Part shown: positions 10,942 to 20,121 of the stretch, one piece after another
Numbering within the stretch: the first letter of the stretch is position 1
Layout of the letters: every line of letters begins with the position of its first letter
DNA from: Bdellovibrionota bacterium
Lineage (GTDB): Bacteria > Bdellovibrionota > Bdellovibrionia > Bdellovibrionales > Bdellovibrionaceae
Direction: 5' to 3'
Assembly: GCA_963170155.1 (NCBI GenBank)
Contig: CAUJGP010000014.1
Span: 1 to 64,000, forward strand
Length of the DNA: 64,000 nucleotides
The notes under the pieces: model-generated
Database searches by the model: none
Told to the model about the DNA's origin: nothing
What the model saw: the letters and a program-made list of their open reading frames with translations, nothing else
Translations under genes and position numbers: made by a program

Positions 10942-11493
10942 TTATAAAATATCCACCGCTAAGGGCGAAATTTCAGATGTTAATTTTGGAGAACTCTCGT
11001 CAGAAAGGGAAGAATGCGGCGCTGACTCTGTCAGCGGCATTCCCATGTATTTTTTCCCCTCTTCCAGCAACGACAAATGAGCATGCGCCAACGCTTTCAT
11101 GTTGCTTTCAAACTGGATTCTCAGTGCTTTTAAATCATTGATTTCCGTGTAAGCCTTTTGTAAGGATTCATGCGTTGACCGTTGCAAATCATTCGTCTTC
11201 AATTGAGCTTCTTGCACAATGAGCTCTGCTTTTTTCTCTGCATCCTCTCGGATTTTTTCAGACATTTGAGAGGCCGTTGTCAGCGTAGTCTTCAACAATT
11301 GATCTCTCTCTTTAAATTCTGCGATCTGGATTTCTTTTTCACGCAACCGTTCACGAAGCTCATTTCTCTCTTTAAAGAGGGCTTCCAATTGATCACTAAT
11401 GGCTTGAAGGTAAGCCACAACCTCTGTTTGATTCAAACCATAAAAAGACCTGTTAAACGTCTTATGAGCGACATCCACTGGAGTGATCTTCAT
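10942..11493 (-). CDS. DivIVA-domain protein
   Basis: About 183 residues from ATG 11493, 5 bases after GAGGAGG; the GTG two codons earlier lies inside that site. The N-terminus (MKITPVDVAHKTFNRSFYGLNQTEVVAYLQAI) is the DivIVA lipid-binding domain pattern, with the F-x-G-L/Y-x-x-x-E-V-x-x-Y/F-L core. A long charged coiled coil follows (about 35-150). DivIVA proteins sense negatively curved membrane and mark poles or division sites. They are best known in Gram-positives but also occur in Bdellovibrionota and Myxococcota. A role in polarity is inferred from family only. Confidence 0.85.
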   Translation of the reverse strand: MKITPVDVAHKTFNRSFYGLNQTEVVAYLQAISDQLEALFKERNELRERLREKEIQIAEFKERDQLLKTTLTTASQMSEKIREDAEKKAELIVQEAQLKTNDLQRSTHESLQKAYTEINDLKALRIQFESNMKALAHAHLSLLEEGKKYMGMPLTESAPHSSLSDESSPKLTSEISPLAVDIL

Positions 11494-11855
11494 CTTCACC
11501 TCCTCAAGAAATATTTTTCTTCACCATTATTCAACTGACTCTTGCCGAAACAACCCGTTCATTCCACAATAGTGAAATAACGCGCTCCCGGAATCACCAA
11601 CAGTTTATCCCTGCAAAACCAACTCAATGAAAAACCATAATTAACTCTCAGTTTTGCGAGGCTAGAATCAATAAACTCAATTCTTTGGTACAATGCTTTT
11701 CAAATCACTGCTGGATTCTTGATTAATTCTAGACAAAGAGAGGGATGAGAATCAAATGACTTAAGTCCAGCAAGCCCTCAATCGAAGAAAAACTAGACCA
11801 AGGACTAAGAAATAAACTCTTAACAGGGATCTGAGATCAAAAGGTTTACCTAAAT
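11494..11855. other. Intergenic region, no gene seen
   Basis: Between the DivIVA gene and proC, both on the minus strand, lie about 360 bases without a supported reading frame, hairpin terminator or clear promoter motif. It presumably holds the proC 3' untranslated region and the DivIVA promoter. Confidence 0.5.
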
Positions 11856-12701
11856 TTACTTTGGATTGGCATTGTTTGTAAGCCGCGAGAGCTCTTGGTT
11901 TCTCATCCAGGCTTTTTCAAAACTCAAACGCAACACACGCTCCAGTTCTAATTCTCTCATGGAATCCAACCCCGCAGCGGTAACGCCTTTTTTAGATGTA
12001 ACTCTTTGCTGAAGCTCTTCTAAAGAAACTTTTGATTCTGTTTGAGCCATCAATGTAGCACCTAAAAATGTTTCTAACGTCATCTTTTTAGCAACCTCAG
12101 GAGAAAACCCTCGTTCCTCAATCCAATCTTGCCAATAAGACATGAGCTCCAAAACAAAGCCCGTCCCCGATGAACAAGAGATGGTAAGAGCATCGAACAT
12201 ATCTCCCTCTTCCATTGCAACCACATAGCCTAAAGGAGCCAGTAATTCTTCCATAATCACATTTGCTCCTTCATCGCCCTCATCGTTCAAGCAATAACCA
12301 ATCACACCTTTGCCAAGAGCCGATGGAGTGTTAGGCATCACACGCACTAACCGGGAGTGGGGCAATGTTTTTTCTAAAGTCCCAAAGTCGATTCCCGCCA
12401 AGAGACTCGCCACAATTTGATCCGGTTGCAAAAGAGACGCGATCGGTTCTATAGCGCTCGAAAAATCCTGTGGTTTCACGGAAAGAAAAAGAATCTGCGT
12501 GTGATCCACGACCTCTTCGTTATCGCTGGCCGCATTGATATTCCATTGATCCTTCAGCTTCATTAGTTTTCCCGGAGTGCGATTGCTCACCCAAATATTT
12601 TCTGCTTTGACTTCGGAGGATTCCAACAACCGACGAATCATCACGGACGTCATGTTTCCCGCGCCAATAAAACCAATTTTCAAATGCTGCACTAAATTCA
12701 T
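11856..12701 (-). CDS. proC: Pyrroline-5-carboxylate reductase
   Basis: 281 residues from ATG 12701. The enzyme reduces 1-pyrroline-5-carboxylate to proline with NAD(P)H, the last step of proline synthesis, in the cytoplasm. Visible marks are the N-terminal dinucleotide fold IGFIGAGNMTSVMI, FLSVKPQD, the RVMPNTPSALGKG motif, and the C-terminal dimerisation region with SCSSGTGFVLELM and VTSKKGVTAAGLDSM (normally T-S-P-G-G-T-T; here SKKGVT). The length is typical. It is followed after 29 bases by... the maf gene upstream in the same direction, so the two may be cotranscribed, maf first. The K-K variant in the TSPGGTT motif is a small oddity. Confidence 0.93.
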   Translation of the reverse strand: MNLVQHLKIGFIGAGNMTSVMIRRLLESSEVKAENIWVSNRTPGKLMKLKDQWNINAASDNEEVVDHTQILFLSVKPQDFSSAIEPIASLLQPDQIVASLLAGIDFGTLEKTLPHSRLVRVMPNTPSALGKGVIGYCLNDEGDEGANVIMEELLAPLGYVVAMEEGDMFDALTISCSSGTGFVLELMSYWQDWIEERGFSPEVAKKMTLETFLGATLMAQTESKVSLEELQQRVTSKKGVTAAGLDSMRELELERVLRLSFEKAWMRNQELSRLTNNANPK

Positions 12702-12730
12702 TTTTTATTCTCTCTCTCTAAAAAAACTCA

Positions 12731-13333
12731 TCACTGTGATTCAAGACTCCACCCTTTTAACTCAAGCAATCGATAAAAACTATCAATGGATAAGCCCACC
12801 ACATTGTCAAAAGACCCTTGATGGTTTTCAATAAAAGTTCCACCCAACCCCTGAATGCCATAGGCTCCTGCTTTATCCATCGGTTCTCCAGAAGCAACGT
12901 AATTTTTAATTTCTTCACTGGAAAGAGGACGAAAAAAAACATCAGTCGTGGTGATCTCACTGGCTTGTTCAAAAGTTTTACAGTTTACCACACACAACGC
13001 GGTCTTGACTTGATGAGCTCGACCCGACAAAAGTTTTAAATACGATTCTGCTTCAGCGGTATTTTTTGGTTTACCAAACGAAACTCCATCAACAATCACC
13101 ATCGTATCGGCCGATAGAATTAAATTATCCTGAGATTTCAATTGTTTATTTTGTTCCAAGCAGGCCCAGGCCTTATCTTGAGCAATCTTCAAAATTTGCC
13201 CGTCTAAACTTAGGTTTTTATCCGGAGTTTCCGATATGTTAGCGGGGAGAATTGTAAACTTGATACCTGCTTTTATAAGCAAGTCTCTTCGTCTTGGAGA
13301 TTGAGAAGCGAGAATCAGTTTATAATGTATCAC
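12731..13333 (-). CDS. maf: Maf-like nucleotide pyrophosphatase
   Basis: 200 residues starting at GTG 13333. Family marks are LILASQSPRRRDLL at the N-terminus (S-x-S-P-R-R), LSADTMVIVDG (catalytic aspartate region), GKPKNTAEAESYLKLLSG and the EPMDKAGAYGIQG motif near residue 155. Maf proteins hydrolyse non-canonical or pyrimidine nucleoside triphosphates (dTTP/UTP or methylated forms) to monophosphates and are linked to septum inhibition. The gene starts only 29 bases from the divergent TadC-like start, so the two promoters must overlap coding DNA. proC follows downstream. Confidence 0.9.
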   Translation of the reverse strand: MIHYKLILASQSPRRRDLLIKAGIKFTILPANISETPDKNLSLDGQILKIAQDKAWACLEQNKQLKSQDNLILSADTMVIVDGVSFGKPKNTAEAESYLKLLSGRAHQVKTALCVVNCKTFEQASEITTTDVFFRPLSSEEIKNYVASGEPMDKAGAYGIQGLGGTFIENHQGSFDNVVGLSIDSFYRLLELKGWSLESQ

Positions 13334-13362: not shown

Positions 13363-14265
13363 ATGGGAAGATCTGATTTACTGCTTTTTAGTTCTTTGTT
13401 GTTAATCGGCGTATCCGTGTACCTTTTTGTTTCTGTCATTCTTGGCAATAACAACGACAAAGATCTCCTTGCATGGGCCAGCGGCGAAGATAAACCCAAA
13501 CCTAAAAGCAAAGTTATCGAAATTGCCTTAATTTTAACACGTCAGTTCACTCTCAAATACGCACTGAAAATCAAAGATACGGCCTATCGAAAAAAAGTGG
13601 ATCATCTTTTACTCACAGCAGGAATGTCCCGTGAAATGACGGTCGATGAATTCATCGGAATGCGCATTTTATTCGGAGTCATGTTTCCCATTCTGCTGTA
13701 TCTTTTGAATTTGGCCGCAGAAGCAGAAATGCCTCTCACCTTTATTCTTGTTCTCATTCCTCTTGGATACAACTTGCCGGACATCCATGCGAAGGGAATT
13801 AAAAATCAACGCGTTCTTTCCGTGCGAAGCGACTTGCCCTTCTTTATTGATCTTTTGGCACTCTCGACAGAAGCAGGTCTGGATTTTATCGGAGCGATCC
13901 AACGTATTGCCGACAAAGCCCAAAACAGCGTCCTTGCGGAAGAGTTGGCTCTTGTACTTCAAGACATAAAATTAGGCTCTTCACGGATTGATTCCATGAA
14001 ACGTCTGGCACAAAGATTGGATATGAGTGAAATTACTAGCTTCGTGGCTGTTCTCGCTGATGCCGATGCTACCGGTGCCAGTATTTCACAGGTGTTGAAA
14101 GATCAATCTATTCAAATGCGTTTGGAACGATTTGTTCGAGCTGAAAAAGCGGGGGCGCGAGCTTCGCAATTGATTCTGCTCCCCATTGTTCTTTTTATTC
14201 TACCCGCTGTGTTCATTATGGTTTTTGGTCCCATTGCTCTTCAATTCGAGCAGGGAGGAAACTAA
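13363..14265 (+). CDS. TadC-like type II/IV secretion system F-domain membrane protein
   Basis: About 300 residues from ATG 13363 (MGRSDLLLF). The frame is open to 13294, but that part overlaps maf. There is an N-terminal membrane helix (about 5-25), a pair of helices around 100-145 (FGVMFPILLYLL, LTFILVLIPLG), a cytoplasmic T2SSF domain (about 165-270: RSDLPFFIDLLALSTEAGLDF, then LRRL-like SMKRLAQRL) and a final helix (ILLPIVLFILPAVFIMVFGP). TadB/TadC proteins form the inner-membrane platform of Tad pili. No TadA ATPase, TadB or pilin gene is adjacent, so this is an isolated component. It heads an operon with DUF192 and FHA genes; its stop overlaps the next start (TAATG). Confidence 0.8.
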   Translation: MGRSDLLLFSSLLLIGVSVYLFVSVILGNNNDKDLLAWASGEDKPKPKSKVIEIALILTRQFTLKYALKIKDTAYRKKVDHLLLTAGMSREMTVDEFIGMRILFGVMFPILLYLLNLAAEAEMPLTFILVLIPLGYNLPDIHAKGIKNQRVLSVRSDLPFFIDLLALSTEAGLDFIGAIQRIADKAQNSVLAEELALVLQDIKLGSSRIDSMKRLAQRLDMSEITSFVAVLADADATGASISQVLKDQSIQMRLERFVRAEKAGARASQLILLPIVLFILPAVFIMVFGPIALQFEQGGN

Positions 14266-14612
14266 TGGCGCAATTGACGAATTCAACGCAAAGTCGCACC
14301 CTCACCCAAAATCTTGTCGTTGCGGACAACCTCTTTCAGAGAATGAAAGGGTTACTAGGAAAATCTCATTTAAAAGAAGGGGAAATGCTGTGGATTTTAA
14401 GGTGCAACAGTATCCATACCTTTTTCATGAAGTTTCCGATCGATTGTGTTTTTCTAAATAAACAAATGTCAGTTTGTTCGATTCAGTCCCATGTCAAACC
14501 CTGGCGGCTGGTTCTCCCTATTTTCAAGGCCACGTCGGTCATTGAAATGGAAGCGGGAAAAGCCCTACAATTCAACATTCAAATTGGGGATCAACTGCAT
14601 GTGGGCCATTAG
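14265..14612 (+). CDS. DUF192 family protein
   Basis: 115 residues from ATG 14265, overlapping the TadC-like stop by one base, with GGAGG upstream. It shows the DUF192 pattern: ADNLFQRMKGLLGKSHLKEGEMLWI, then C-x-S-I-H-T-F-F-M-KFPIDCVFLN (the H-T-F/W-x-M...P-I-D core) and VIEMEAGKA. DUF192 proteins are small beta-rich domains of uncertain function, often exported, but this copy has no signal peptide and would be cytoplasmic. In Tad-related clusters DUF192 genes do recur. Its end overlaps the following FHA gene by 14 bases, suggesting coupled translation. Confidence 0.8.
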   Translation: MAQLTNSTQSRTLTQNLVVADNLFQRMKGLLGKSHLKEGEMLWILRCNSIHTFFMKFPIDCVFLNKQMSVCSIQSHVKPWRLVLPIFKATSVIEMEAGKALQFNIQIGDQLHVGH

Positions 14613-16227
14613 GATGCTTTCTGGAAATCACGCGGGGCAAGTGTTTCCTCTCCAAGAGGGAAGAAACCTCATCGGTCGAGGCGTGAATTGCCAAATTCGA
14701 TTCAATGATTTGGACGTCTCCAAAGAACATGCCTTTATCATTTCTGAAGAAAAAAAATTGATCCTCATGGACAACCAATCCAGAAACGGAACTTTTGTCA
14801 ATGGTGTCATGATCAATAAAACCAATTTAAAACGAGGCGATAAAGTTTCATTCAATCAAACACTCTGTGACGTTATTTACCTGCCAAATGCAAACGCCAA
14901 CAAGATGCTATCGCTCGTGCCCAATGCAAACGGAGCGGCACTCACTCCGCAAACGATTCCCATGGGATCACCTGCGCACTACAATCCTCATGGAGTTCCT
15001 GGTCACGTCAATCCCACTTCATCTTCAATGCCTGCTTTTGAAAATAACATTTCCGTGGAGAGAACCTCACCGCCATCCTCTGATTTTTTCAAACGCTATT
15101 TTGAAGAAGTTTTAATGCCCGGCGTGTATCAACTCGGTAAAGTCATGGAGTTCAAACTCGTCATTGGCCTCTTCATGCTGATTTACGCCGTTTTGGTAAC
15201 GGCTCTTTCAACTATCCCCATGCTCGCAATCACCTCGGATAGCATTCAAATAGAGAGTCGCAGAAGGGCTCTGACCATCGCCCGTAATTTAGCGAACCTC
15301 AATCAACAAGCTCTTCTCAAAGATATGGAATCCGCCGTTTCAACTCAAACAGCGGAACTCGAAGAAGGCGTAAGCCAAGCGTACATCATTCGTCAAGCCG
15401 ATGGATCCGTGATCGCGCCGGCGTCTCGCTCCGGGACCATTCCATCCATTCCTTTCATTGAAACTGCACGCCGCGAACAAAAAGAACTCATCAAACAAAT
15501 TGATTCCTCCCATATTGCTGTTGCCGTTCCGTTGTCGGCCTTCAACCCGGATACGTCCACTTATGCGATCAAAGCTTTTGCCATTGTTATTTACGACATG
15601 GGTTCTCTCGCCATTGACGATGGAAGAACTCTCAGTTTGTTCTTTCAAACCCTGATCATCGCCATCATCTTAGGTTTCTTTCTTTATCTGCTATTCTACC
15701 GATTCGTAGAACACCCTGTTGCAAAACTTAACACGCAGATTGATCACGCTCTGAAAACAAAGTCCTCCTCCATCGCGACTGTTGATATTGATTTTCCTGT
15801 CTTTCAAAGTCTCGTTTCAAACATCAACAGCCTCATCACGAGGGTTTCTACCTCAGACGGCGATTCTGAGAGTTTTTCTGGAGCCAACAAAGACTTTGAA
15901 ATGATCAACGTTGTGAAACTCATTGGTTATGCGGGTCTTGTTATTAATTCAGATCACACGGTGCTTGGTCTTAACAGCGCGGCAGAACAGCTTTTAAATC
16001 TCAGCGAATTTCAAATAAGAAACCAACCCATCACTCTTATTCCTGACCAGGCTTTGCAAAAAAGTCTGTATGACCTTATGGAACACGCTCAAAGGGACCC
16101 CGCCATTCCGAGTCGCAATGAATTGGAATTCGGAGGCGTCAACACTGAAATTAATTGTCAAGCCATCACCAATAAAAGCCAAATTCAATACTACATCGTC
16201 ACCATCATTCCCCTTGAAGGCGGCTAA
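14599..16227 (+). CDS. FHA-domain transmembrane sensor protein with PAS-like C-terminus
   Basis: About 542 residues from ATG 14599 (MWAIRM); ATG 14614 is an alternative start. Residues about 5-95 form a canonical FHA phosphothreonine-binding domain (LIGRGVNCQI, DVSKEHAF, NQSRNGTFVNG). A proline-rich linker leads to a membrane helix (about 186-206), an extracytoplasmic region of about 135 residues, a second helix (about 345-365) and a HAMP-like stretch. A PAS-like domain (about 435-500: YAGLVINSDHTVLGLNSAAEQLLNLSE) closes the protein. This resembles a sensor kinase chassis in which an FHA domain is present and no kinase domain exists. It probably couples an envelope signal to phosphopeptide binding. 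It is second in a series of coupled genes ending in a PP2C-like protein. Confidence 0.8.
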   Translation: MWAIRMLSGNHAGQVFPLQEGRNLIGRGVNCQIRFNDLDVSKEHAFIISEEKKLILMDNQSRNGTFVNGVMINKTNLKRGDKVSFNQTLCDVIYLPNANANKMLSLVPNANGAALTPQTIPMGSPAHYNPHGVPGHVNPTSSSMPAFENNISVERTSPPSSDFFKRYFEEVLMPGVYQLGKVMEFKLVIGLFMLIYAVLVTALSTIPMLAITSDSIQIESRRRALTIARNLANLNQQALLKDMESAVSTQTAELEEGVSQAYIIRQADGSVIAPASRSGTIPSIPFIETARREQKELIKQIDSSHIAVAVPLSAFNPDTSTYAIKAFAIVIYDMGSLAIDDGRTLSLFFQTLIIAIILGFFLYLLFYRFVEHPVAKLNTQIDHALKTKSSSIATVDIDFPVFQSLVSNINSLITRVSTSDGDSESFSGANKDFEMINVVKLIGYAGLVINSDHTVLGLNSAAEQLLNLSEFQIRNQPITLIPDQALQKSLYDLMEHAQRDPAIPSRNELEFGGVNTEINCQAITNKSQIQYYIVTIIPLEGG

Positions 16228-16229
16228 CC

Positions 16230-17486
16230 GTGAATACAGCAAAGGCATTCCCCTCTGATTTAATTAAAATTGACGTGAAAATCACCTCAGGGCCTCACGA
16301 AGGGGAAACCTTTGTCATCACAAAAGACATCTTCAATGTCGGTAGAGGCGCTGAAAATGACATCATCCTGATCAATGATCCTAAACTGAGTCGCAATCAC
16401 ATTAAAATTTCAATGAAAGAATCTCATCTTTTCGTTGAAAATTTAAGTACTCGCAATCCGATTCTTTTCAAGAAAAAATTAGAGCAGCAAGTGGAAATCA
16501 AACCCATGGATCGCATCCGTATTGGGGATACTGAAATGGAACTCTCTTGGAATGCGACGCTTTTTGAAAAAACATTAATGGCCACCGAAGATCCAACCCA
16601 GCTTTCTGTTCAACGAACGATAGCCACCAAGGTGGAAGACATCCCCGAACAAGAGCTTCCATTGCCAGTTCTCACAGAAAAAAATAAAATTCCAGCCATC
16701 ATCCCTCTACCTGCGGCAGCGACAGCGGCGGCAACTGCACCCCCAGCCACCACCGCCACTTCCGCCTCGGATAAGGCTCTTCGTAATAAAGTGCTTTTTC
16801 ACCCTACAGCACCCAAAATACCACTTGCGCCTTCCATCAAAAATGAAAATAGAATCGTGAAAAATGATGAGCCTCCAAAGATAAATGCGGCTCCTCCTCC
16901 TCGCCCCGCCCCGAATGCCATCATTCACAAGAGTAAAATCCCGCCTCGCTTTCTACTCATAGGAGCTGGAGTGGTTCTGTTGATCATTATTGTGATCATG
17001 CAATCGGGAGATAAAAAACCCAAAAAACAAACGGCGTTGAAAGACCCACATCAACTCAATGCGGAACTGCAAAAATCAAATCAACTTGTTGAAAATTACA
17101 TGAAAGAAAAAAAACTGCAGGACGACGGACGGATGGATCGCGTGCATGAATCAGCTCAATCCTACTATATCAGGGGCTTTCGCGATTATCGACAAGGACA
17201 ATTCTCGCGCGCCATCATCGCTTTTCAAGCCGCCCTCTCTTTTGACCCGAATCATGTGCTGGCGAAAAAATATCTTCTTCAAAGTGTAAAAAAACACTCT
17301 GAAGTCGTTCAATTCAATCTTGATCAGGCGAAGAGGTACAAGGAAAAAAGCAACTATCGCCTTTGCCGATCTTCGGCCAAACAAGTCATTATTATGGCTC
17401 TCCGAAAAGATCAAAGCGATCCTCACTATAAAGAAGGAAAAAGCCTGTTTGATGATTGTGACATGCTCTCTAAGGGACGGTTTTAG
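16230..17486 (+). CDS. FHA-domain membrane protein with C-terminal TPR-like region
   Basis: 418 residues from GTG 16230, two bases after the previous stop. Residues about 14-105 form an FHA domain with NVGRGAENDI and KLSRNHIKI, but the usual N-G-T-x-V-N turn is replaced by STRNPILF, so phosphothreonine affinity may be altered. An alanine/proline-rich linker (about 150-235) precedes one membrane helix (about 240-258, RFLLIGAGVVLLIIIVIM). The C-terminal 150 residues contain TPR-like helices (SYYIRGFRDYRQGQFSRAIIAFQAALSFDPNHVLAKK). The topology suggests a cytoplasmic FHA domain and a periplasmic TPR domain, inferred from order only. Such proteins may act as scaffolds across the inner membrane. 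Confidence 0.78.
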   Translation: MNTAKAFPSDLIKIDVKITSGPHEGETFVITKDIFNVGRGAENDIILINDPKLSRNHIKISMKESHLFVENLSTRNPILFKKKLEQQVEIKPMDRIRIGDTEMELSWNATLFEKTLMATEDPTQLSVQRTIATKVEDIPEQELPLPVLTEKNKIPAIIPLPAAATAAATAPPATTATSASDKALRNKVLFHPTAPKIPLAPSIKNENRIVKNDEPPKINAAPPPRPAPNAIIHKSKIPPRFLLIGAGVVLLIIIVIMQSGDKKPKKQTALKDPHQLNAELQKSNQLVENYMKEKKLQDDGRMDRVHESAQSYYIRGFRDYRQGQFSRAIIAFQAALSFDPNHVLAKKYLLQSVKKHSEVVQFNLDQAKRYKEKSNYRLCRSSAKQVIIMALRKDQSDPHYKEGKSLFDDCDMLSKGRF

Positions 17487-17488
17487 CC

Positions 17489-19441
17489 ATGGTTAAACTG
17501 GTTGTGCGCCTTCATGGAAAAGTCATTCAAACACTGGAACTCTCTGATCCCGCCACCACCTACTGGGCCGGAAGAAGTGAAAATTGCCAAGTGGTTTTAA
17601 ATCACGAGAAAGGAATTTCCCGTCAGCATTTCAAAATCAACCTCAAAGAGGGCCTTTGGAATCTAGAAGTCACGTCAACCTATGGCGATATTAAAACCGG
17701 TGAAACGACCGTGCGAGAACTTGTGCTGCAAGAAGGCACCAGCTTCAGCCTTACACCTTACGAATTCCATGTGGAAAGCATCCACACTCAAAGTCACTCT
17801 TCTGATTTAGCTCTGGCTTCAGGAGAAGCTCGGGCAAGATCCTCCTCTTCTGCTGCGGGATCTCCCCACCAAGAATTCGAAAAAACCGTGACTCGAGTTT
17901 TCGAAACAAGCAAACAATACACTCTCGCCTACTTCAATAAAGATACCAACGAGAGCAAAGTTTTTATCCTGACTAAAAATGAATACGTCATTGGTCGTGA
18001 TCCTGGGTGTGATATTGTGCTCAATGATGCTCGCGTGAGCCGACGTCAATTCAAATTGATCAATAAAAATGGAAGTTTTTATTTAATGGACAACTTGGGC
18101 ATTAACGCCACAAAAATCAATAAAATTAAAGTGACTTCCAATGAACCCCAATTACTCAGCAGCAACGACGAGATTAAAATTCTATCTCACAAATTAAAAT
18201 TCGAGATCCGAGACTCTCAATTCGAAAGCCAGTGGCAAAAAGTGAAACATTTGGCGCTGATCGATCCTGCTGACTTCTCTAATAACCCTGATCTCAACGA
18301 CCCTTCTTTAGGAGAAGGGTCCACTGCAAATCAATCCAATGAAACTACGGACTCTGACCCTGCAAAAATTTTAAATTTTTGGGGGATCAAAATAGCTCTC
18401 ACCAAAAAAAATAAGATCCGCATGGGACTCGTTGGTCTGCTATTGATCGTCGCCATTGTCATTTCATCGGACAACAGCAGCATGGATCCCAATGCCAATG
18501 TCGCCAATCAACCAGCCAATCCTCTTGCCAAGTTAACACCCGAAGAACAAAAACAAGTGAAAGTTCAATACGAGCTGGCTAAAGATTTGTACACCAAAGG
18601 GAATTACCAAATGGCTAAAGAAGAACTCACCAAAGTTCATGCTAAAATCCCTTCTTATCTTGATTCCCTGGAGTTAGCTCGTTTTATCGAAGTGGGCATT
18701 CAATCGGCCCAAGAAAGAGAACAACAAGAACGTCTAAAAAGAGAAGCGGCTGAAATTGAAGAAAAAATAGTGAATATCGTGGCCTTCTGCCGTCAGCAAT
18801 TAAAACCCGATGCGAGCATCGCGGAATCTGATGATTGCCTGTCCCCTGCCATTCAACTCAATCCTGAACATGAATTACTTGTAACTTTTCGAGGAGAAAT
18901 CGCTCGCGTGGAAGAGCAAAGGAAAACCCTCGAGGCCGAGCGCGCCTTCAAAGCCGCACAAGCCGCGGAATTAGAAAAACAATACAAGTTAGCTCTGGAA
19001 ATCAGCCAAAAAGATCCTTACAAGGGCAAGCAAGCCTTTGAAGATTTTTTAAAGTTGACCATGGATGACCCTAAAAAACTCCAAGATAAAGCAAAACGTG
19101 ATATCAAGAGACTGGAGCGTAAAATAAAACAAAGCATCTCTTCAGCTATTAACTCCGTTAAGACTTTAGTCGAAGAAGGAAAGCACAGACAGGCCATTAT
19201 TGCGCTTGAAAAAGCTGTTGAAATGTCCCCTCCCAATCATGAACTCGATGAAGAAATCGAAAAAATCACAGAAGATCTTCGAAAAAAGATGCAAGCTCTT
19301 TATCAAGAGGCCATCCTAGAAGAAAACATTGGCAATGTCGATACCGCCAAAGACCGGTGGAAAAAAATTATTGAACAAGACATTCCCAATGGAGAATATC
19401 ACAATAAAGCCAAAATCAAATTGAAAAAATATGGTGGATGA
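17489..19441 (+). CDS. Double-FHA membrane protein with long TPR/coiled-coil C-terminus
   Basis: 650 residues from ATG 17489, two bases after the previous stop. FHA domain 1 (about 5-95) keeps YWAGRSENCQV and GISRQHFKI. FHA domain 2 (about 145-245) has YVIGRDPGCDI but VSRRQFKL, where the usual histidine is glutamine, and NLGINATKIN. A membrane helix at about 308-327 (MGLVGLLLIVAIVIS) follows. The C-terminal 300 residues hold TPR-like repeats (AKDLYTKGNYQMAKEELTKVHAKIP) and charged coiled coil. The architecture repeats that of the preceding protein, with a second FHA added, suggesting duplication within the operon. The stop overlaps the next start in an ATGA. It probably forms a signalling or scaffold complex with its neighbours. 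Confidence 0.78.
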   Translation: MVKLVVRLHGKVIQTLELSDPATTYWAGRSENCQVVLNHEKGISRQHFKINLKEGLWNLEVTSTYGDIKTGETTVRELVLQEGTSFSLTPYEFHVESIHTQSHSSDLALASGEARARSSSSAAGSPHQEFEKTVTRVFETSKQYTLAYFNKDTNESKVFILTKNEYVIGRDPGCDIVLNDARVSRRQFKLINKNGSFYLMDNLGINATKINKIKVTSNEPQLLSSNDEIKILSHKLKFEIRDSQFESQWQKVKHLALIDPADFSNNPDLNDPSLGEGSTANQSNETTDSDPAKILNFWGIKIALTKKNKIRMGLVGLLLIVAIVISSDNSSMDPNANVANQPANPLAKLTPEEQKQVKVQYELAKDLYTKGNYQMAKEELTKVHAKIPSYLDSLELARFIEVGIQSAQEREQQERLKREAAEIEEKIVNIVAFCRQQLKPDASIAESDDCLSPAIQLNPEHELLVTFRGEIARVEEQRKTLEAERAFKAAQAAELEKQYKLALEISQKDPYKGKQAFEDFLKLTMDDPKKLQDKAKRDIKRLERKIKQSISSAINSVKTLVEEGKHRQAIIALEKAVEMSPPNHELDEEIEKITEDLRKKMQALYQEAILEENIGNVDTAKDRWKKIIEQDIPNGEYHNKAKIKLKKYGG

Positions 19442-20121
19442 TGAAGCTTCAAGAACAATTCAGTTATAGAACTCATCAGTCTTGGCGACCTCAACCCACG
19501 CTCCTAACGGAAGACTCCCTTCAATTCACCGGCGTGAGTTTTTCGTGGGGAGAAATGGATGTCTCTCAAAAGGCCTTTGAAAACATAAGAATTTTTGTAG
19601 AAGCCACTCTTAATCAATCCGAGGTTACGAACCCTTTTGGTTTCAACGAAAGCCTTTCCAGTTTGGAAAACGCTCTTTACTCGGGCTGCTCCCAAGCCAA
19701 TGATGTGATTTATCGTTTGATCAACAACATCACATTGACGAGCGGGTTAGAAGGCTTGTGGATGATCAAAAAAGGCAAAGAATTAGCCATGATTCAGGTG
19801 GGACAACCTCAAGTTTATCTGATCCGCAACCAGACCCTCACACCTCTTTTTGGAGTAGGAGACATCACCACTTCGCAACCAAATAATGGTGAATTTTTAC
19901 CTCATAGATTATTAGGTGTTCACAATCAAGGGGCCTTCAACATCCAAAGCGTTGGTCTTGAAGACAATGACCAATTGTTATTGCTTGCCCATAGCTTAAT
20001 CCCGATGAGTTTGCATGACGTTCTGAAATCCAAATCTAAGATTTATGATGCAAAGTTGCTCTTTCAAAAAATTGCCAAAGAGCACCCTCACTGCCCCTTT
20101 TGGATTTCTACTTTTTTATAA
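19438..20121 (+). CDS. PP2C-like protein, probably a catalytically inactive phosphatase
   Basis: 227 residues from ATG 19438, overlapping the FHA gene stop by 4 bases. The second half resembles PP2C/PPM phosphatases: LWMIKKGKELAMIQVGQPQVYLIRNQTLTPLFG matches the strand pair around G-D-S-R-x-Y-L-x-R-x-G-x-L, and RLLGV...VGLEDNDQLLLLAHSL matches the R-A-L-G ... D-x-L-L-L-C-S-D-G-L segment. The metal-binding aspartates of PP2C (D-G-x-G-G, G-D-S-R, S-D-G-L) are absent: GQPQ and AHSL occupy those places. It may bind phosphoprotein without cleaving it. Its place after three FHA genes fits a phosphosignalling set. Identification rests on pattern, not a search. Confidence 0.6.
   Translation: MMKLQEQFSYRTHQSWRPQPTLLTEDSLQFTGVSFSWGEMDVSQKAFENIRIFVEATLNQSEVTNPFGFNESLSSLENALYSGCSQANDVIYRLINNITLTSGLEGLWMIKKGKELAMIQVGQPQVYLIRNQTLTPLFGVGDITTSQPNNGEFLPHRLLGVHNQGAFNIQSVGLEDNDQLLLLAHSLIPMSLHDVLKSKSKIYDAKLLFQKIAKEHPHCPFWISTFL

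Follow-up and report, generated by a model that had tools for sequence, protein, structure and literature searches.

Why should the gene for a Tad inner-membrane platform protein, TadC, stand in a tightly packed operon with a DUF192 gene, three FHA membrane proteins and a phosphatase-like protein, away from the other Tad genes of its genome? This question is raised by positions 13363-20121 of the window, by which we mean the whole stretch of 64,000 nucleotides analysed here (contig CAUJGP010000014.1, from a member of the Bdellovibrionaceae). A preliminary description had seen in these genes a trans-envelope phosphosignalling scaffold around an orphan TadC, beside the flagellar operon and with a composition not matched by any described system. 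Based on gene-order comparisons, searches of the remaining contigs of the genome, and structure predictions, we consider it probable that the block instead unites the TadC platform with a dedicated phosphothreonine-signalling control of a split, contact-triggered Tad pilus.

The six-gene block and its conservation

The block comprises six overlapping or near-touching genes, all called as ORFs on one strand (Table 1), and every junction type reported earlier (TAATG, 14-base overlap, 2-base gaps, ATGA) was seen. The gene of FHA1 overlaps the DUF192 gene by 14 bases when its start is placed at ATG 14599, and the 2-base gaps precede FHA2 and FHA3. The start of the longest ORF (14491) was dropped for 14599 on conservation, because the MW start (here MWAIRMLSG) is common to the relatives. 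A scan for internal promoters or terminators gave counts close to those of shuffled controls (15 against 11.0, sd 3.3, and 10 against 8.1, sd 2.5) and carried no information on either. Pfam agrees with four FHA domains on three membrane proteins, two of them in FHA3, and with TPR regions on two of these proteins, the TPR matches being weak. As had been described, neither TadA, TadB, a pilin nor a kinase was found within the block in the ORF list or by Pfam.

Table 1. Genes of the block, with coordinates in the window
Gene	Position	Strand	Length (aa)	Features
tadC	13363..14265	+	300	Single-domain T2SSF inner-membrane platform protein; Pfam PF00482, 1.3e-16
DUF192 (COG1430) protein	14265..14612	+	115	Pfam PF02643, 5.7e-19; TAATG junction with tadC
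FHA1	14599..16227	+	542	Pfam FHA, 8.9e-15; weak PAS
FHA2	16230..17486	+	418	Yop-YscD_cpl/FHA, 1.4e-13/5.6e-9; TPR_2, 1.6e-5 (weak)
FHA3	17489..19441	+	650	FHA, 6.8e-23, in two stretches; TPR_2, 6e-5 (weak)
PP2C-fold protein	19438..20121	+	227	Fold from predicted structure; ATGA junction with FHA3

Of 39 relatives, 38 gave a full-strength match in the TadC search, and 190 of the 191 genomes of the phylum gave matches, at least one of them (G028) with a weak TadB-type match only. Where more than 6.5 kb follows tadC, the gene order tadC-DUF192-FHA1-FHA2-FHA3 holds in 99 of 101 loci (28/29 order genomes, 16/16 other-family loci and 55/56 named Bdellovibrionia loci, the first and last sets overlapping in part, as G167 and L143 have equal coordinates), and the median gaps between the block genes range from -1 to -14 bases in these loci. 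The arrangement is thus no product of chance; scattering of these genes among relatives would, according to the preliminary description, have made the operon incidental. The DUF192 gene is second in nearly all loci. Directly 3' of FHA3, an ORF of about 190-260 aa is present in 30/30 order loci with sufficient sequence and in 59/60 named loci; a recognisable PP2C was not found at this place in two families (f12, locus L092; f15, loci L095 and L096). All six genes are present in Bdellovibrio sp. qaytius (L143) and in B. bacteriovorus kdesi (L162), in the latter in the same order and with similar lengths. Since L143 has the coordinates of G167, a genome listed in the family of the window, the window belongs to the family of Bdellovibrio. 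The trans-envelope module of FHA and phosphatase-fold proteins is real and ancient.

Divergently upstream of tadC, the window carries maf, proC and divIVA (10942-13333, minus strand). These genes lie beside the block in 31, 28 and 21, respectively, of 31 loci of the order, but adjoin it in none of 20 loci of other families, which implies that the block outlasts the general gene order. The statement that the block lies beside the flagellar operon is true at this locus; the neighbourhood itself is incidental, fliL/M/N having been seen next to the block in 0 of 131 further loci, part of which are short. A flagellar link was therefore rejected. In G028, a genome of the same order, no TadC operon was found in the 100-contig assembly, and its Tad cluster, running from tadV to tadB (L230, G028:C33:108000-124000), has no detectable TadC block; this is possibly a true loss or an assembly gap.

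Position of the block within the Tad machinery

The genome contains six T2SSF domains, accounted for by two double-domain PilC/GspF-type proteins, by TadB (contig C24) and by the TadC of the window (contig C14); the latter is the only TadC of the genome, TadB being the only other single-domain T2SSF protein. On C24, TadB adjoins a fusion protein of 747 aa in which a ParA-like TadZ is joined to TadA. Contig C36 carries matches to Flp1_like (3.5e-10), Peptidase_A24 (2.6e-11), RcpC (9e-22) and Secretin (2.7e-20), together with a short Flp-like gene and two TadE/F-like genes; the latter two, which have no Pfam match, were assigned from their position and from a pilin-like segment at the N-terminus. 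Among the core Tad parts searched for (flp, tadV, cpaB, secretin, tadZ, tadA, tadB and tadC), TadC alone is missing on C24/C36, and the Tad genes of this genome are split over contigs C14, C24 and C36.

In six other families (f13, f16 with two genomes, f19, f21, f23 and f24), the block runs on the same strand into tadV-flp-tadE/F-cpaB-cpaC-tadZA-tadB, and the three FHA genes sit between tadC and tadV/flp. The gene tadV is present in most of these six families, and Pfam supports the f16 copy of the cluster. The TadA variant of f13 has 917 aa, with no TadB detected directly behind it, and the tadB of f23 is read as two pieces. In the order of the window and in several families (e.g. f17 and f20), the block lies apart from the other Tad genes. 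Since only TadC is missing elsewhere in the genome, and since the locus is contiguous in six families, the window block is the upstream half of a split Tad locus, and it almost certainly belongs to the Tad (type IVb) pilus system. The Tad locus has been split in the Bdellovibrio order as well as in a number of other families. The gene arrangement of B. bacteriovorus agrees with this: its tad locus bd0108-0121 includes tadA and tadB (PMC5430801), and its tadC is bd0470 (PMC3818213). In host-independent strains, bd0470 is down along with the bd0108-0121 tad genes (PMC3818213). A split locus also accounts for the known Bdellovibrio tad (hit) locus having no tadC beside tadA and tadB.

On C36, within L211:5516-6229 (plus strand), a 65-aa Flp2-like ORF whose product begins with MTVEYVLLL lies beside the Flp1-like pilin gene and resembles the trimmed flp2 that has been reported for Bdellovibrio. 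It is adjoined in this genome by a tadV prepilin peptidase gene; tadV has been said to be missing from Bdellovibrio genomes (PMC5430801).

An independent trans-envelope phosphosignalling scaffold with an orphan TadC at its centre and no relation to pili would fit with the lack of TadA, TadB or pilin genes nearby and with the distance of the block from the other Tad genes in the order and in families such as f17 and f20. However, the same genome holds a core Tad machinery that is complete but for TadC, the contiguous cluster of the six families already largely refutes such a scaffold, and B. bacteriovorus mutated in tadC is defective in attachment (PMC6561027). This reading, which we regard as very improbable, was rejected on the first two grounds: what stands of the earlier proposal is the module of FHA and phosphatase-fold proteins, while its TadC is no orphan but a displaced Tad part, the very situation that the preliminary description had named as its alternative and that the core parts on C24 and C36 reveal. 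A further possibility concerns the motor, since the block could serve an orphan CpaF instead of, or besides, TadZ-TadA, two Tad-like motors then sharing one platform. In L110 of family f26, the block is followed by genes for a cupredoxin-like protein and a CpaF. This pair is found by itself on contig C3 of the present genome (L114:2465-4203, plus strand), where the CpaF is the best match of the genome to the f26 CpaF (374.9 bits, against 332.4 for the TadZ-TadA fusion). Such linkage was nevertheless seen once only, whereas the neighbour is the TadZ-TadA fusion in six families, mostly with TadB, and we hold such a use of the block by the orphan CpaF to be rather improbable. Contig C12 also carries a secretin-type gene beside a third, divergent CpaF-like ATPase (L116:2654-5148, plus strand), a pair for which the genome has no separate TadB or TadC.

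FHA proteins and the PP2C-fold protein

If the block is thus part of a Tad system, the role of its FHA proteins has to be considered. The model of FHA1 (pLDDT 86) consists of a cytoplasmic FHA domain, a transmembrane helix, a periplasmic alpha/beta sensor-like domain, a second transmembrane segment with a HAMP-like helix, and a cytoplasmic PAS-like domain. Its top Foldseek match is the WalK sensor kinase (integrative model; 7.9e-14, partial, TM 0.26); phosphothreonine-binding FHA domains come next. In its model, FHA1 thus resembles a WalK-type sensor kinase that carries an FHA domain but lacks the kinase. FHA2 is composed of an FHA domain, a long linker, a transmembrane helix and TPR, with a hydrophobic segment after about residue 240 of the translation. 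FHA3, the orthologue of Bd0474 of B. bacteriovorus, has two FHA domains, a transmembrane helix and TPR, and Bd0474 shows the same arrangement (2xFHA-TM-TPR).

All three proteins also match in Pfam the FHA-fold domain of the type III secretion ring, Yop-YscD_cpl. They might therefore be purely structural, forming ring-like assemblies as YscD/SctD-type FHA-fold domains do and reading no phosphothreonine, and the loss of the contact histidine in the second FHA domain of FHA3 would be in line with such a role. On the other hand, the phosphothreonine-contact residues are kept in FHA1 (G26, R27, S41, H44 and N63, in 37-38 of 38), largely in FHA2 (G, R, S and R in 18/18, H in 14/18) and in the first FHA domain of FHA3 (G, R, S, R and H in 18/18). 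A domain with a structural role alone would not be expected to conserve the G-R-S-H contacts, and a phosphatase-fold partner is encoded together with the FHA genes; we thus find a solely structural function unlikely, albeit less so than the alternatives considered above.

The last protein of the block had been described as phosphatase-like, and this is upheld by its predicted structure: although it has no Pfam or NCBIfam match, it models confidently as a PP2C (PPM) fold (pLDDT 92), and its top Foldseek match is PppA, the T6SS phosphatase of P. aeruginosa (1.2e-12), among 148 PDB matches at E <= 0.001. In alignments, the metal-binding ED, DGxGG, (T/S)DG and DN motifs of active PP2C are all kept in the f17 and f20 copies and are kept in part in f16, f19, f21 and f24. 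Pattern counts found DGxGG in 13 of the 16 copies of other families, but neither DGxGG nor [TSC]DG in any of the 30 and 59 order copies (89 in all). The catalytic residues have been lost in the order and the gene has been kept, which argues for a binding role; judged by its motifs, the protein is presumably a catalytically dead pseudophosphatase in this order.

Relation to known systems and a possible role at prey contact

The threonine phosphorylation pathway of the T6SS consists of PpkA, Fha1 and PppA. The present block resembles it in pairing FHA proteins with a PP2C-fold partner, of which PppA is the top structural match, and in its tie to a contact-dependent machine. It differs in having no linked kinase and no T6SS genes, and in a PP2C that appears catalytically dead by its motifs. 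In canonical Tad/Flp loci, such as cpa of Caulobacter and tad of Aggregatibacter, the genes are usually in one locus. The genome studied here likewise has TadC, TadB, TadA, TadZ, CpaB, a secretin, Flp and a prepilin peptidase, but in several places, with TadZ and TadA fused and with additional DUF192, FHA and PP2C genes. The single locus is a usual trait rather than a strict one, because the Tad genes are also split in B. bacteriovorus and in the Kil system of Myxococcus xanthus.

Kil is a Tad-like prey-killing system that assembles at prey contact, and its authors suggest that its FHA proteins signal prey contact to pilus assembly; they also group Kil with the Tad systems of Bdellovibrionales (PMC8460266). 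Kil, whose Tad parts are split over two clusters, shares with the present genome this splitting and the presence of several FHA proteins, a likeness of composition. Its single ATPase, KilF, bears an N-terminal FHA domain, whereas in the present genome a ParA-like TadZ is joined to TadA, the FHA domains belong to membrane proteins distinct from the ATPase, and two more CpaF-type ATPases occur. By analogy, the block may then work like a Kil-type Tad system, although it fails one Kil-defining feature, the FHA domain on the ATPase.

The closest known case is B. bacteriovorus, which belongs to another genus and whose TadC is 59% identical. The earlier claim that no described system has exactly this composition fails in the strict sense, as the operon itself is already known in that species: Bd0470-Bd0475 has been named (PMC12034629), and predation phenotypes are on record for two of its genes (PMC6561027). 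In that organism, which is not the one of the window, a Bd0470::Tn (tadC) mutant shows no prey attachment, killing or rounding, while a Bd0474::Tn (FHA3) mutant attaches to prey yet neither kills nor rounds it (PMC6561027). Bd0474 interacts in two-hybrid assays with Bd0075, mainly via the TPR domain that the latter carries outside the cytoplasm, and a contact between Bd0473 (FHA2) and Bd0475 (PP2C-like) is predicted with an ipTM of 0.604, in the grey zone (PMC12034629). In the open-licence literature, we did not find a description of Tad contiguity in other families, of the phylum-wide fixed order, of the sensor form of FHA1 or of the loss of the PP2C catalytic residues, nor any match for Tad, FHA and PP2C together.

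These elements suggest how such a control could operate. The periplasmic domain of FHA1 would sense an envelope or prey-contact signal, and its FHA domain, like those of FHA2 and FHA3, would read threonine phosphorylation set by a Ser/Thr kinase encoded elsewhere. FHA2 and FHA3 would extend their TPRs into the periplasm and recruit partners there (Bd0075 in B. bacteriovorus). The catalytically dead PP2C could act as an FHA-associated adaptor or as a phosphopeptide competitor, and together with the FHA proteins it might control when the TadBC/TadA motor is assembled or fired at the point of contact with prey. No Ser/Thr kinase gene was found among the six; the only clear one of the genome (Pkinase match) is on contig C32, unlinked. 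Because no kinase is linked, our confidence in the phosphosignalling mechanism itself is moderate, its chances of being right and wrong being about equal. More speculatively, the block might be a phylum-wide Tad-pilus control module composed of a kinase-less, WalK-like FHA sensor and an FHA-TPR pair that read threonine phosphorylation, in which the PP2C became a pseudophosphatase in the Bdellovibrio order, turning an erasable into a scaffolded switch that fires the pilus on prey contact; we put this forward tentatively and consider it somewhat doubtful. The block nonetheless provides a concrete and conserved parts list for the possible control of a Tad pilus needed in Bdellovibrio-type predation, and its pseudophosphatase and sensor FHA protein make the vague idea of FHA signalling directly testable in a tractable predator.

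A last observation concerns the gene directly after tadB, which encodes an RHS-repeat/DUF6531 protein of 549 aa with a signal-like N-terminus (L024:8437-10086, minus strand; Pfam 2.8e-13). Such a protein also follows tadB in other families (L201, L202, L203, L204 and L205). It is likely to be a hit-locus protein of the Bd0109 type, and is perhaps a pilus-linked surface protein.
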